Assembly: GCF_000013025.1 (NCBI RefSeq)
Contig: NC_008358.1
Location: 3,038,001-3,102,000, forward strand
Reading direction: 5' to 3'
DNA length: 64,000 nt
From: Hyphomonas neptunium ATCC 15444
GTDB taxonomy: Bacteria > Pseudomonadota > Alphaproteobacteria > Caulobacterales > Hyphomonadaceae
Part shown: positions 22,432-26,865 of the stretch, one piece after another
How the letters are laid out: every line of letters begins with the position of its first letter
Position numbering within the stretch: the stretch's first letter is position 1
Notes under the pieces: model-generated
Databases searched by the model: none
What the model saw: the letters and a program-made list of their open reading frames with translations, nothing else
Told to the model about the DNA's origin: nothing
Made by a program: the position numbers and the translations under genes

Positions 22432-22797
22432 ATGATGCAGATTTCAGCCGCCGAACTCGAAGTCATGGGAATCCTCTGGGCAGAGCCGGGCCTTGCTGCC
22501 TCCGATGTCCACGAGAAACTTGGTGACGGAAAAGACTGGAACGTCCGCACGGTGAAAACCTTCCTCGCCCGCCTGGTCGAGAAAGGCGCCGTCACCACAC
22601 GCGAGGATGGCCGCCGCTATCTCTATTATCCGGCGATTGATGAAGCCGAATACAAGGGCAGCGCCGCCGGCCAGTTTGTCGACCGGGTGTTCTCCGGCCG
22701 CGCCGCCCCGCTGGTTGCCCACCTGGCCGATACGCGCGGCCTGACACAAGACGACATCGCCGAACTCGAGAAGCTTCTGGGGGAGCTGAAGAAATGA
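22432..22797 (+). CDS. BlaI/MecI/CopY family transcriptional repressor
   Basis: 121 aa from MMQISAAELEVMGILW, the usual start of the family, with GGGAG upstream; a second ATG follows immediately. The winged helix covers residues 1-75 (DWNVRTVKTFLARLVEKGAV as recognition helix and TTREDGRRYLYYP as wing). The C-terminal helices (GLTQDDIAELEKLLGELKK) form the dimer. In the best-studied systems the repressor is inactivated by proteolysis triggered by the partner BlaR/MecR peptidase, encoded next here with a 4-bp overlap. Confidence 0.93.
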   Translation: MMQISAAELEVMGILWAEPGLAASDVHEKLGDGKDWNVRTVKTFLARLVEKGAVTTREDGRRYLYYPAIDEAEYKGSAAGQFVDRVFSGRAAPLVAHLADTRGLTQDDIAELEKLLGELKK

Positions 22798-24914
22798 TCA
22801 CGCAGGTTCCTGACACCTATCTGTCCCATGCGCTGGAAGCCGCCGTCGCCGCCACGCTTCTGATCCTTCTGGTTCTGGCGATCCGCAAGCCGGTCGCCCG
22901 CCATTTCGGCGCCGGCATTGCCTACGCGCTCTGGCTGCTGCCGATAGCGCGGCTGCTGCTGCCGCCGCTGCCCCATCAGGCCTCCCTCTTCAGCTGGCTG
23001 AAATTGCCCGCCGGCACACCCGAACCCGCCGCCTTCACCGTCCGGGAATCGGCGACAGCGACCCCAGGGGTGCCCGCCCCGCCCGCAGAGGCTGTAACCG
23101 CCGCGCCCCTGGAGATCGTCCCGGCCCCGCCATCGGCAGCCTTCGACATGCCCGCCCCCCATTCTGCGCTCGTGGAGACGCCTGATCTCTTCGTCTATGC
23201 CGGCCTGATCGGTCTCGCAGTCTGGATCGGCGGCGTGCTCTACGTTCTCGCCCGCAGCCTGCACACGCATATGCAGTTCATGGCCATCGTTGAACGCGAA
23301 GGCCTGCCCGTCACCGGCGATCTGGAAGCCTTGTCGATCGAGGTCGCCCGCGAAGCCGGCCTGAAACGGATGCCGCGCGTCGTCACCAGCCTGATCTCCA
23401 GCGGCCCCTTCGTCACCGGCCTCTTCCGCCCGGCGGTCGTCCTGCCCGCCTGGTTTGCGCAGGACTATTCGCGCACCGAAGCGCGCGCCGCCATTGCCCA
23501 TGAGCTCACCCATGTGAAGCGCAGCGATCTCTGGGCGCTCCAGGCGTCTGAAATCTTCGTCGCCCTGATGTGGTTCAATCCGCTCGCCTACATCGCCCGC
23601 CAGGCCTTCCGCACGGACCAGGAAGCCGCTTGCGACGCCGATGTACTCCGCCGCGGCCATGCCAGCCCCCATGCCTATGGCGCCACGCTGGTCAAAGCCG
23701 TCCGCATGCAGATGCCGGCCCGCATTGCGCTGACCACCAGCCTGCCGCTTACCCACGCTCTCAAGGAAAGGCTCAAGCTCATGTCCTATCCCGCCCCTGA
23801 CACACGCCGCCGCTGGATCGGCTTTGGCGCCGCCGTTCTCCTGGGAACCACTGCGCTCGTCGGCACCGCCTCGGTCGCTGCTGCGGGAGAGAAGGACAAG
23901 AATAGCCTCAAGATCGAAAACGGCACGCTCTGGCTCGACGGAGAGAAGGTCGATAACCGTCAGGTCGTTCTGCTCACGGACCCGGTCGAAGGCCTTGTCC
24001 CCAATCCACCCGTGCCTTCGGACATCCACGATCTGTCGATGAGCATTGAAGCGGATGTGGCCGAACTTACAGGACCAGAAGGGCTTGTCGATGTAATCGA
24101 CCTGGCCCGTGATCCGGACTTCCAGGAAATCACGCGCCTGAGCACCGAACTGGCTCTGATGGGCGCAAGCCTTGGCACGGACGCCGCGTTTGAAAGCCTC
24201 AAAATGAATTTTGCCGGCATGTCCGAAGACGAGATCGATGCCTGGGCCGAGGAATTCGAAGCCCGTATGGAAGCCAAGGCAGAAGAAATCGAGGCGCGCG
24301 CCGCTCAGATGGAAGCGGAGATCGAAGCGCGCTCAGCGGTGTTCGAAGCACGTATGGATCATGCCAGCGAAGCCCGCGCCCTGGAAATAGAGCGCCGCGT
24401 CGAGGCCAACGCCGCCCGCATTGAGGCAGAGGCTGCCCGCATCGAAGCCGAGGTTGAGCGTCATTATGGCGAAGAGTTCCAATCCCGGATCGAGGCGCGC
24501 ACCGGACTTATCCCTGAGCTGGCCGAAGAGTGCGCCGCACTTGATCTGGCCGACGGCGAAACCCGGATCATCGAGCGCCAGACGGATGACGGCCACAGCG
24601 TGAAAATCGCCTGCGCCGCCGGTGGCGAGGATGTCCTGCGCGCCGAAACGACGAGGGGCTTTATCAACTCGAATGCTGGCCTCAGCGAAGAAGAGAAAGC
24701 CAAGTTCCGCCAGCATTCGTCCAATAGCGACAAACACACCTTTACCTTCTCCACAAAGACCAGCACTTCGAAAACGCCCGCTGAGCCTTCTCCGCCTGCA
24801 ACCCCAGAAGTGCCAGCGCCGCCGTCGGATCTGCTCGGAGAGGAGAAGCATACGAGCCTCTTTCCTTTTTCCACGGCGTTGAGCCTTAACGAGGAAGCGT
24901 GTGACGCCGCCTGA
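22794..24914 (+). CDS. M56 family membrane metallopeptidase (BlaR1/MecR1-like)
   Basis: 706 aa, overlapping the repressor by ATGA. Membrane segments lie near residues 12-35, 40-58, 140-165 and 340-362. The M56 zinc site is H236-E-L-T-H240 in the cytosolic domain, followed by EAACDADVL with the third ligand. It lacks the penicillin-binding sensor domain of BlaR1. Instead, after the last membrane segment comes an exported Ala/Glu-rich helical region (about 480-565, repeats of EARxE and AARIEAE) and then a Thr/Ser/Pro-rich tail. It probably senses an envelope signal and relieves BlaI repression; the signal and target genes are unknown. Confidence 0.9.
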   Translation: MITQVPDTYLSHALEAAVAATLLILLVLAIRKPVARHFGAGIAYALWLLPIARLLLPPLPHQASLFSWLKLPAGTPEPAAFTVRESATATPGVPAPPAEAVTAAPLEIVPAPPSAAFDMPAPHSALVETPDLFVYAGLIGLAVWIGGVLYVLARSLHTHMQFMAIVEREGLPVTGDLEALSIEVAREAGLKRMPRVVTSLISSGPFVTGLFRPAVVLPAWFAQDYSRTEARAAIAHELTHVKRSDLWALQASEIFVALMWFNPLAYIARQAFRTDQEAACDADVLRRGHASPHAYGATLVKAVRMQMPARIALTTSLPLTHALKERLKLMSYPAPDTRRRWIGFGAAVLLGTTALVGTASVAAAGEKDKNSLKIENGTLWLDGEKVDNRQVVLLTDPVEGLVPNPPVPSDIHDLSMSIEADVAELTGPEGLVDVIDLARDPDFQEITRLSTELALMGASLGTDAAFESLKMNFAGMSEDEIDAWAEEFEARMEAKAEEIEARAAQMEAEIEARSAVFEARMDHASEARALEIERRVEANAARIEAEAARIEAEVERHYGEEFQSRIEARTGLIPELAEECAALDLADGETRIIERQTDDGHSVKIACAAGGEDVLRAETTRGFINSNAGLSEEEKAKFRQHSSNSDKHTFTFSTKTSTSKTPAEPSPPATPEVPAPPSDLLGEEKHTSLFPFSTALSLNEEACDAA

Positions 24915-24983: not shown

Positions 24984-25430
24984 ATGATGATCCGCTTTGC
25001 CCTGGCCGCTATGGCCCTCGCGTCGCTTGGCGCCTGCGCCACCCAGCCTGAGCCCTGCACCACCGAATGGGTGCAATACCGGACCGACCGGATACTCGGC
25101 CAGTTCGCCTCGGAAAACCGGGGCCTGGTAAACGACCTGCGCCGCCTGACGCGCGAAGATGGCAAGGTCGATCCGGTGCAGAGCATCCTCCTCGCCGCCC
25201 AGGCGGAAGATATCCAGCAATTTGCCCGCAGCTTTGAAACCGTCGTCGTGCCGGAACTGAATTCAGCCATCCAGCAATGTGGCCGCCACGAGAATTTCGT
25301 ACCTGCCTTCACCCAGTTCCTGCGCAATGAAGGCGTGCCCGAAACATCGCTGCAATGGGTCGGGCCGATCCTCGCACTGGTTCAGGTAATGCAGGATGAC
25401 GGGCAGCTCCAGTCCGGCCCGCGCCCCTGA
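24984..25430 (+). CDS. Small lipoprotein, unknown
   Basis: 148 aa with a clear lipoprotein signal (MALASLGAC, lipid Cys at residue 18 or so, two ATGs in tandem at the start). The mature part is helical with two further cysteines (PCTTEW and QQCGRHENF) that may pair. It precedes the kdsB-like gene by 18 bp on the same strand and is likely in its operon. I do not recognise the family. It would sit in the outer or inner membrane facing the periplasm. Confidence 0.7.
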   Translation: MMIRFALAAMALASLGACATQPEPCTTEWVQYRTDRILGQFASENRGLVNDLRRLTREDGKVDPVQSILLAAQAEDIQQFARSFETVVVPELNSAIQQCGRHENFVPAFTQFLRNEGVPETSLQWVGPILALVQVMQDDGQLQSGPRP

Positions 25431-25448: not shown

Positions 25449-26261
25449 ATGCAGACATTGATCGTTGTCCCTGCCCGCTATGGCTCCACCCGGCTGCCGG
25501 GCAAACCGCTCGCCAAGATCGCCGGAAAAACGATGGTCAGCCGCGTCGCCGACCTTGCGCGGCGCGCGGCGGCCAGACTTGGCAAGGGCGCCGAGTTTGT
25601 CGTTGCCACCGATGACACGCGCATCCTGCAATATTGCCGCGACAACAACATAAATGTGGTGATGACCGACCCGGCCCTGCCATCGGGATCAGACCGGGCG
25701 CTCGCGGCTGTGGACGGCTTGGGCATGAGCCCGGATTTCGTGGTGAACCTGCAAGGCGACGCGCCGTTCACACCGGCCGAGCATGTCGTAGCCGTCGTCG
25801 AGGCTCTGGAAAAATCAGGCACCGACGCCGCAACGCCTTACATCCGGCTCAGCTGGGCCGCGCTTGATCAGCTGCGAAATCACAAGGCGCAGACCCCTTT
25901 TTCGGGCACCACGCTGGTCAAAGATCCCAAGGGCCGGGCCATCTGGTTTTCCAAGATCATCCTGCCCGCCATCCGCAAGGAACCGGAACTGCGCAAGCTG
26001 AACGATCTCTCGCCGGTCTGCCAACATGTCGGCCTCTATGGCTTCCGCCTTGATACGCTGCGCCGTTATTGCGCCCTTCCCGAAAGCTATTATGAGCGGC
26101 TGGAAGGCCTTGAGCAGCTGCGCCTGATCGAGAACGGGTTCAGCGTCCAGGCTGTGGAAGTCAAACCCGGCAAGATCGCCATCCCCGGCATCGATACGGC
26201 CGAAGACATTGCCCTTGCCGAGCGCCTTGTGGCCGAGTTCGGCGAGCCGGACGTCGCCTGA
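25449..26261 (+). CDS. kdsB: CMP-Kdo synthetase-like cytidylyltransferase (KdsB family)
   Basis: 270 aa, about 20 longer than typical KdsB. It would activate Kdo or a related sugar acid with CTP for lipopolysaccharide. The opening VVPARYGSTRLPGKPLAKIAGKTM is the nucleotide-binding motif; VVATDD follows. The usual SGTDR region reads LPSGSDRA and the usual QGDEP reads NLQGDAPF, so an acidic residue next to the metal Asp is replaced by Ala. The terminus PGIDTAEDIALAERL is conserved. This is a recognisable but divergent branch; a second, standard KdsB may exist elsewhere. Confidence 0.85.
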   Translation: MQTLIVVPARYGSTRLPGKPLAKIAGKTMVSRVADLARRAAARLGKGAEFVVATDDTRILQYCRDNNINVVMTDPALPSGSDRALAAVDGLGMSPDFVVNLQGDAPFTPAEHVVAVVEALEKSGTDAATPYIRLSWAALDQLRNHKAQTPFSGTTLVKDPKGRAIWFSKIILPAIRKEPELRKLNDLSPVCQHVGLYGFRLDTLRRYCALPESYYERLEGLEQLRLIENGFSVQAVEVKPGKIAIPGIDTAEDIALAERLVAEFGEPDVA

Positions 26262-26265
26262 CAGC

Positions 26266-26865
26266 ATGGCCCGGCTATTTATCGTCCGGCACGGCAATAC
26301 CTTCGACAAGGGCGATACCGTCACGCGTGTTGGCGCACGCACGGACCTGCCATTGTCGATCTCCGGGCGCGAACAGGCTCGTCATCTGGCTGATCGTTTT
26401 GCCGATATCCGGTTCTCTGCCGCGCTGTGTTCGGTCCTCATCCGCACCCGCCAGACCGCGCGCGCAATCCTCAGCCAGCGGACAGATAATCCGGCCTTGC
26501 TGATTGCCCCTTTCCTGACCGAGATCGATTATGGTCCCGATGAGAAACAGCCGGAGGAGACGGTCGCCGCGCGCCTTGGACCGGCCTTGGAGGCTTGGGA
26601 CCGGGACGGGACACCGCCGCCAGACTGGACTGTGGATGTGGCGGCGATCCGTGCGGGCTGGAGCGGCCTCCTGACGCGCGCCGCCGCCCTGTCCGAAGAC
26701 GCCGCCGCGTTGATCGTCACCTCCAACGGTATTGCCCGGTTCCTACCGGATGTGGTGGACAAGGCGCCTGAAGGGCTAGACCGGAAGCTGAAGACCGGTG
26801 CCTGGGGCGAGCTGACGGTCTCGCGATCCGTCAGCGAAATCCTGAACTGGAACCAGCGGCCCTGA
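26266..26865 (+). CDS. Histidine phosphatase superfamily protein
   Basis: 199 aa from MARLFIVRHG, 4 bp after the kdsB-like stop; upstream open frame overlaps kdsB and is discarded. The phospho-accepting His9 in RHGNT is present, as are the two Arg positions (CSVLIRTRQTA) and the acid in TEIDYG. The second catalytic histidine, normally in SHG, reads TSNGIARF (Asn154). Cofactor-dependent mutases and phosphatases use that His. Operon position suggests a role on the same sugar pathway, for example dephosphorylation, but this is inference. Confidence 0.82.
   Translation: MARLFIVRHGNTFDKGDTVTRVGARTDLPLSISGREQARHLADRFADIRFSAALCSVLIRTRQTARAILSQRTDNPALLIAPFLTEIDYGPDEKQPEETVAARLGPALEAWDRDGTPPPDWTVDVAAIRAGWSGLLTRAAALSEDAAALIVTSNGIARFLPDVVDKAPEGLDRKLKTGAWGELTVSRSVSEILNWNQRP

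Follow-up and report, generated by a model that had tools for sequence, protein, structure and literature searches.

A histidine phosphatase encoded next to KdsB as a candidate replacement for KdsC in the CMP-Kdo pathway of Hyphomonas neptunium and other Alphaproteobacteria

Introduction

Which reaction is served by a histidine phosphatase whose gene directly follows that of a KdsB-type cytidylyltransferase? This question is raised by a locus of Hyphomonas neptunium ATCC 15444, located in a stretch of 64,000 nucleotides (NC_008358.1, positions 3,038,001 to 3,102,000; hereafter the window) of a complete genome of 3.7 Mb on a single contig. A sequence-only reading of this DNA had proposed that the two gene products activate a Kdo-like or other sugar acid in a pathway separate from that of normal Kdo.

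Divergent bacteria possessing the CMP-Kdo pathway but lacking KdsC were described as having a pathway hole in a reconstruction from 2017, the available text of which suggests that a different phosphatase, possibly nonspecific or HAD-type, closes the gap (PMC5615194). The same text states that KdsC is dispensable in E. coli; promiscuous phosphatases can therefore be enough. In the literature searched, which largely excluded subscription journals and excluded all of bioRxiv, no alternative Kdo-8-phosphate phosphatase was found beyond the open question of that study. Here, we analyzed the two proteins, their conserved residues and structural models, and the distribution, linkage and phylogeny of their genes.

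Results

The gene pair and its surroundings

Both open reading frames of the pair were confirmed on the forward strand, separated by the 4 bp given in the sequence-only reading. The gene kdsB (25449..26261; 270 aa, QGDAP motif) codes for a putative CMP-Kdo synthetase of a phosphatase-linked clade, and the following gene (26266..26865; start codon ATG, 199 aa; RHGNTF, EIDYG and TSNG motifs) codes for a histidine-phosphatase-family protein, proposed here to be a Kdo-8-phosphate phosphatase replacing KdsC. Upstream, 18 bp 5' of kdsB, a small lipoprotein-like ORF (24984..25430, forward strand) without a match in Pfam or NCBIfam is possibly co-transcribed with kdsB. It lies outside the conserved unit, and the 26 frames related to it among the loci compared all adjoin kdsB in the window's genus or in its close relatives. 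The region just 5' of these genes (22435-24914) contains a BlaI-type repressor (PF03965) and then a 706-aa BlaR1-type M56 peptidase (PF05569) whose C-terminal part is long and charged. A promoter and terminator scan yielded one promoter-like and three terminator-like sites at chance expectations of 0.5 and 1.9, respectively; these counts are near chance, and the sites were set aside as evidence.

The cytidylyltransferase

The window KdsB matched PF02348 (CTP_transf_3) with 140.5 bits. Its nearest named loci belong to Hyphomonas (92-93% identity), and the solved structures closest to its AlphaFold model (pLDDT 85.8) are KdsB and KpsU. With known KdsB (NF003952; 3k8d, 1h6j, 2y6p) it shares the fold, the metal-site Asp and the NCBIfam subfamily cut-off (NF003952, 253.2 vs. 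193 bits), but it differs in scoring below the cut-off of the equivalog TIGR00466 (143.9 vs. 155.2 bits), in its QGDAP motif, in about 20 additional residues and in belonging to a clade of its own that is tied to a phosphatase. Other members of this clade fall on both sides of the TIGR00466 cut-off, with L010 (175.6 bits) and L158 (180.5 bits) above and L046 (154.8 bits), L146 (141.7 bits) and L110 (147 bits) below it. NF003952 was rejected as a marker of the clade, since unlinked KdsBs also pass it.

Three features had been read as divergence of the window protein. One of them, LPSGSDRA, is ordinary, as LPSGSDR stands at the same position in the solved Aquifex KdsB 2y6p. The exchange of QGDEP for QGDAP and the additional length were confirmed, but both extend over the clade. 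The residue after QGD is Ala in 70, Ser in 8, Asn in 3 and Leu in 1 of 82 phosphatase-linked KdsBs, and Glu in 25, Met in 25, Leu in 3, Ala in 1 and Ile in 1 of 55 KdsBs outside the clade. Median lengths are 269 aa for the 82 linked proteins and 248 aa for the 55 others, and the NF003952 model comprises 250 positions. Judged by these comparisons, Ala in QGDAP and the additional residues characterize the whole linked clade and are not peculiar to the window protein.

All 141 KdsBs compared have the metal-binding Asp of the QGD motif. For Aquifex KdsB, the available text of PMC3149649 names D95 and D219 as the two Mg-binding Asp residues. Their counterparts in the window KdsB, D104 and D249, are invariant in 82 of 82 linked KdsBs. 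The same is true for H193, Y197, E222 and Q223, which we take to be the Kdo-binding residues.

Kdo pathway genes in the window genome

The window KdsB is the one CTP_transf_3 protein found in its genome, where we also found one KdsA over the cut-off (324.7 vs. 314 bits) and one WaaA-type Glycos_transf_N protein (waaA). With one protein of each kind, the window KdsB most likely supplies normal CMP-Kdo. The second canonical kdsB for which the sequence-only reading had suggested a search was not found in this genome, which, judged by gene content, largely contradicts a pathway separate from Kdo; this assignment was rejected, as the search of a complete genome with KdsA and a WaaA-type protein revealed no further CTP_transf_3 protein. 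Kdo in the LPS of Piscirickettsia or Hyphomonas is not mentioned in the available part of PMC4052302.

KdsC (TIGR01670) gave no match at E 0.001 in the whole window genome and was over the cut-off in none of 120 genomes of the order. Some match to the model at E 0.001 occurred in 34 of these 120, six of them scoring 89.6-100.8 bits. Four genomes of the order that possess the phosphatase (G011, G016, G090, G095) have a KdsC-like match of 93.6-99.4 bits, under the cut-off of 106.95, and a phosphatase-bearing genome of the class (G446) has a sub-cut-off match of 100.9 bits. The best sub-cut-off match in the order falls within a 393-aa frame (L086:781-1962, genome G045) that also contains a CTP_transf_3 domain and therefore resembles a fused nonulosonate-type enzyme more than KdsC.

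The histidine phosphatase

The only Pfam match of the window phosphatase was PF00300 (His_Phos_1; 97.3 bits, gathering score 21.7), while 12 NCBIfam models matched without the cut-off of any being reached. An assignment as CobC was rejected on the cut-offs of NF011580 (51.9 vs. 250 bits) and TIGR03162 (46.5 vs. 162.9 bits). The closest folds to the AlphaFold model (pLDDT 94) are histidine phosphatases, with Z-scores of 18.1-22.8 among the 50 entries listed, including 4ij6 (Z 22.8, 191 aligned, rmsd 2.5), TIGAR (21.8), the riboflavin HFP 9mmh (21.7) and CobC (19.9). CobC (6e4b, 6nru) is the nearest by sequence and the phosphoserine phosphatase 4ij6 the top by structure. Both have the histidine-phosphatase fold in common with the window protein, which, however, scores far under the CobC cut-off, lacks the second catalytic His and is linked to Kdo genes.

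The RHGNTF codons (26287..26304, forward strand; residues 8-13) include the nucleophile His9. Among 86 distinct relatives, collected by a script that kept frames with RHG only, R8, H9, G10, T12 and F13 are present in 86 and N11 in 85; yet none of 109 frames above 120 bits was without RHG. R60 and the likely acid E86 are likewise retained in 86 of 86. The superfamily's second catalytic His would be expected within the TSNG codons (26719..26730, forward strand; residues 152-155). At this position, which was assigned by alignment within the phosphatase family, the window protein has S153; 85 of the 86 relatives have Ser, and one, L158 (L158:1501-2154), has His in the usual SHGG motif. In view of L158, the Ser-Asn form could be a derived state or one that can revert. 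W111 and W121 do not vary among the relatives, and R158, K174 and W195 occur in 83, 83 and 84 of 86, respectively; these five residues are candidates for binding of the sugar acid.

The available text of PMC12051542 gives R8, H9, R58 and H149 (HFP numbering) as the core residues of histidine-family phosphatases, describes the second catalytic His as highly conserved in all of them, and reports that such an enzyme fills the riboflavin phosphatase gap in Aquifex. This HFP (9mmh) is likewise a histidine-family enzyme in a missing dephosphorylation step, but its substrate differs and it retains the second His (H149), unlike the window phosphatase. KdsC, a member of the HAD superfamily, would share the reaction and the place in the pathway with the window phosphatase, but fold and chemistry are unrelated, the latter proceeding via phospho-Asp in KdsC and presumably via phospho-His in the window protein.

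Linkage of the phosphatase gene to kdsB

With the window protein as query and hits counted at E 1e-15 or better, the phosphatase family was present in 47 of the 120 genomes sampled from the order; of 72 genomes with a match at E 0.001, 25 had no hit reaching 1e-15 and were excluded from this number. Loci of kdsB were fetched for part of the 120 genomes. The phosphatase gene starts at most 20 bp from the end of kdsB in 44 of the 47 genomes, overlapping it by 1-8 bp in 27 of these 44, and in one further genome it lies 366 bp away. A conserved separation of the two genes elsewhere, which the sequence-only reading had named as evidence against a pair, was therefore not observed.

In the class sample (387 genomes) hits were counted at E 1e-30 or better, which left the phosphatase family in 29 genomes; 16 of 45 genomes, whose best E fell in the range from 1e-30 to 1e-15, were left out, and the one locus inspected among them (L167) has neither RHGNTF nor kdsB. 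Outside the window's genus, kdsB lies upstream on the same strand at distances up to about 0.6 kb in 25 of 26 loci, the exception being L164, with a phosphatase and no kdsB alongside. Both genes were present in all of 20 class neighbourhoods (9-19.5 kb, 15 families), where any other real gene family occurred in at most three; the next clusters (seven and four loci) consist of frames antisense to kdsB and the phosphatase gene.

Altogether, the pair was found in 22 GTDB families of Alphaproteobacteria, including three of the order, and in two Piscirickettsiaceae records, at identities as low as 23% between phosphatases and 32% between KdsBs. The occurrence of the pair across these families supports the functional pair in sugar-acid activation assumed by the sequence-only reading. 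Identities of KdsBs and phosphatases are correlated (Spearman coefficient 0.78 for 82 pairs, a value reached in none of 500 permutations), a result that shows shared inheritance only and was set aside as functional evidence. The examined KdsBs of other clades have no such phosphatase partner. At seven loci of the order that lack the histidine phosphatase (L116:5110-5847, also L108, L115, L119, L120, L126 and L127), a divergent calcineurin-like phosphoesterase, with PF00149 tested on one of them, is encoded 0.7-1.5 kb from kdsB, and a further KdsC replacement is possible there.

Clusters with kdsA and kdsD

The phosphatase gene is also found next to other Kdo genes. In genome G026 about 10 bp separate its start from the end of kdsA, and kdsB is encoded close by on the opposite strand. 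In G019 its direct neighbour is kdsD; kdsA is found some 6 kb away and kdsB on a different contig. The genes kdsD, kdsA, kdsB and that of the phosphatase occur together in G020, G055, G040, G108, G056 and G065, and in G104 as a seventh genome, where kdsD is 7 kb off. KdsC was over the cut-off in none of these seven; in G104, a 745-aa frame contains a match of 22.5 bits. Ten KdsA and KdsD proteins, eight of them from six of these nine order loci (G026 and G019 included) and the others from further loci of the set, were checked in NCBIfam and all passed TIGR01362 or TIGR00393 (KpsF/GutQ), while the stricter KdsD equivalog was passed by none of the KdsDs checked; KdsA and KdsD of G104, G040 and G065 were named by sequence match alone.

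Some of the pairs are located on plasmids. Plasmid pLA5 of Novosphingobium pentaromativorans US6-1 carries kdsA and then kdsD-kdsB-phosphatase-capsule gene (PF05159), and plasmid Mpl of Novosphingobium strain PP1Y repeats this arrangement with the same four genes. A Hirschia baltica plasmid carries the kdsB-phosphatase pair, and neither kdsA nor kdsD was seen within 9 kb. The linked clade is represented twice in G055, by KdsB genes (L110 and L205) that lie 3 kb apart, one with and one without a phosphatase gene.

Phylogeny and co-occurrence with KdsC

The KdsB tree was built from 102 sequences, to which the set of 141 had been reduced by thinning at 82% identity. It places all of its 52 linked KdsBs in one clade of 56 rows with an SH-aLRT support of 99. 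The other four rows are L160, which is in fact linked, L111 (G026), L112 (G019) and the second KdsB copy of G055. Nested among the alphaproteobacterial KdsBs of this clade is that of Piscirickettsia salmonis LF-89 (L046). This strain and Piscirickettsiaceae NZ-RLO1 (L047), which we take to be Gammaproteobacteria, both possess the kdsB-phosphatase pair, and no KdsC match was found in either. The pair in Piscirickettsia looks like a replacement by gene transfer. LF-89 also has a second, shorter CTP_transf_3 protein (98.4 bits), so the linked KdsB is not its sole one.

In the phylum sample (n=397), the phosphatase was present in 10 genomes, KdsC over the cut-off in 220 and both in none, where two of the ten (G011, G016) have the sub-cut-off KdsC-like matches and 4 of 14 genomes, with phosphatase matches of 75-82 bits, were dropped uninspected, three of them having KdsC. 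This lack of overlap is confounded by ancestry. In the class (n=387) the respective numbers were 29, 12 and 0, with about one genome expected to have both by chance. Most Alphaproteobacteria sampled have neither the phosphatase family nor KdsC at the thresholds used; for this reason the absence of KdsC was ruled out as stand-alone proof, and more than one KdsC replacement probably exists.

Discussion

We consider it probable that the window phosphatase replaces KdsC in the formation of ordinary CMP-Kdo together with KdsB. With somewhat less confidence, we favour the wider view that dedicated, so far unnamed Kdo-8-phosphate phosphatases of the histidine-phosphatase fold without the second His take the place of KdsC in 22 or more alphaproteobacterial families and, through transfer of the pair, in Piscirickettsia, and that their presence defines a KdsB clade. 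The substrate is deduced from gene context. In the proposed pathway, KdsA, whose gene is present, would make Kdo-8-phosphate, the histidine phosphatase would remove the phosphate via phospho-His9 in place of KdsC, KdsB would join Kdo to CMP through Mg-binding D104 and D249, as their conservation suggests, and WaaA, whose gene is also present, would transfer Kdo to lipid A. The phosphatase would belong to a dedicated family, passed on together with one KdsB clade as a unit, and would work with Ser-Asn instead of the second His. Speculatively, the coupled or overlapping frames may balance both enzymes or channel Kdo.

Several results weigh against this reading. The second catalytic His, highly conserved according to the text cited above (PMC12051542), is Ser in the window protein. 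Other phosphatases probably act elsewhere in Alphaproteobacteria and could do so here, in keeping with the dispensability of KdsC in E. coli (PMC5615194), and the absence of KdsC alone does not point to a histidine phosphatase. The sub-cut-off KdsC-like matches in G011, G016, G090, G095 and G446, the second CTP_transf_3 protein of LF-89 and the phosphatase without kdsB in L164 also do not fit smoothly.

Among the alternatives, the phosphatase might belong to the Kdo pathway but act on another substrate, such as CMP, pyrophosphate or a misphosphorylated CMP-sugar, thereby pulling the KdsB reaction or cleaning up. Its tie is closest to kdsB and not to kdsA, and small histidine phosphatases of this fold hydrolyse many esters, as the fold neighbours illustrate. 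However, the gene is the neighbour of kdsA in G026 and of kdsD in G019, in neither case adjoining kdsB, the examined KdsBs of other clades manage without such a partner, and the dephosphorylation of Kdo-8-phosphate is the pathway step for which no gene was found, so that we regard this alternative as unlikely. The positions in G026 and G019, away from kdsB and still beside Kdo genes, also argue against a catalytically dead protein that serves as partner or regulator of the linked KdsB clade. Such a role would agree with the replacement of the second His by Ser in 85 of 86 relatives and with the close or overlapping frames, but R8, H9, R60 and E86 are all retained, and it appears very unlikely. 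Fainter still is the prospect of the separate Kdo-like sugar acid with which we began. The KdsB clade is indeed distinct, differing at the QGDxP position and by about 20 extra residues; against this stand the sole CTP_transf_3 protein in a genome with kdsA and waaA, the four presumed Kdo-binding residues invariant in all linked KdsBs, and the clustering of the pair with the genes for KdsD and KdsA.

If the window phosphatase acts in place of KdsC, it would provide a concrete candidate gene for part of the KdsC gap described in the available text of PMC5615194, within a pathway serving the outer membrane. It would also exemplify a natural phosphatase family lacking a residue that has been described as conserved throughout the histidine-family phosphatases.
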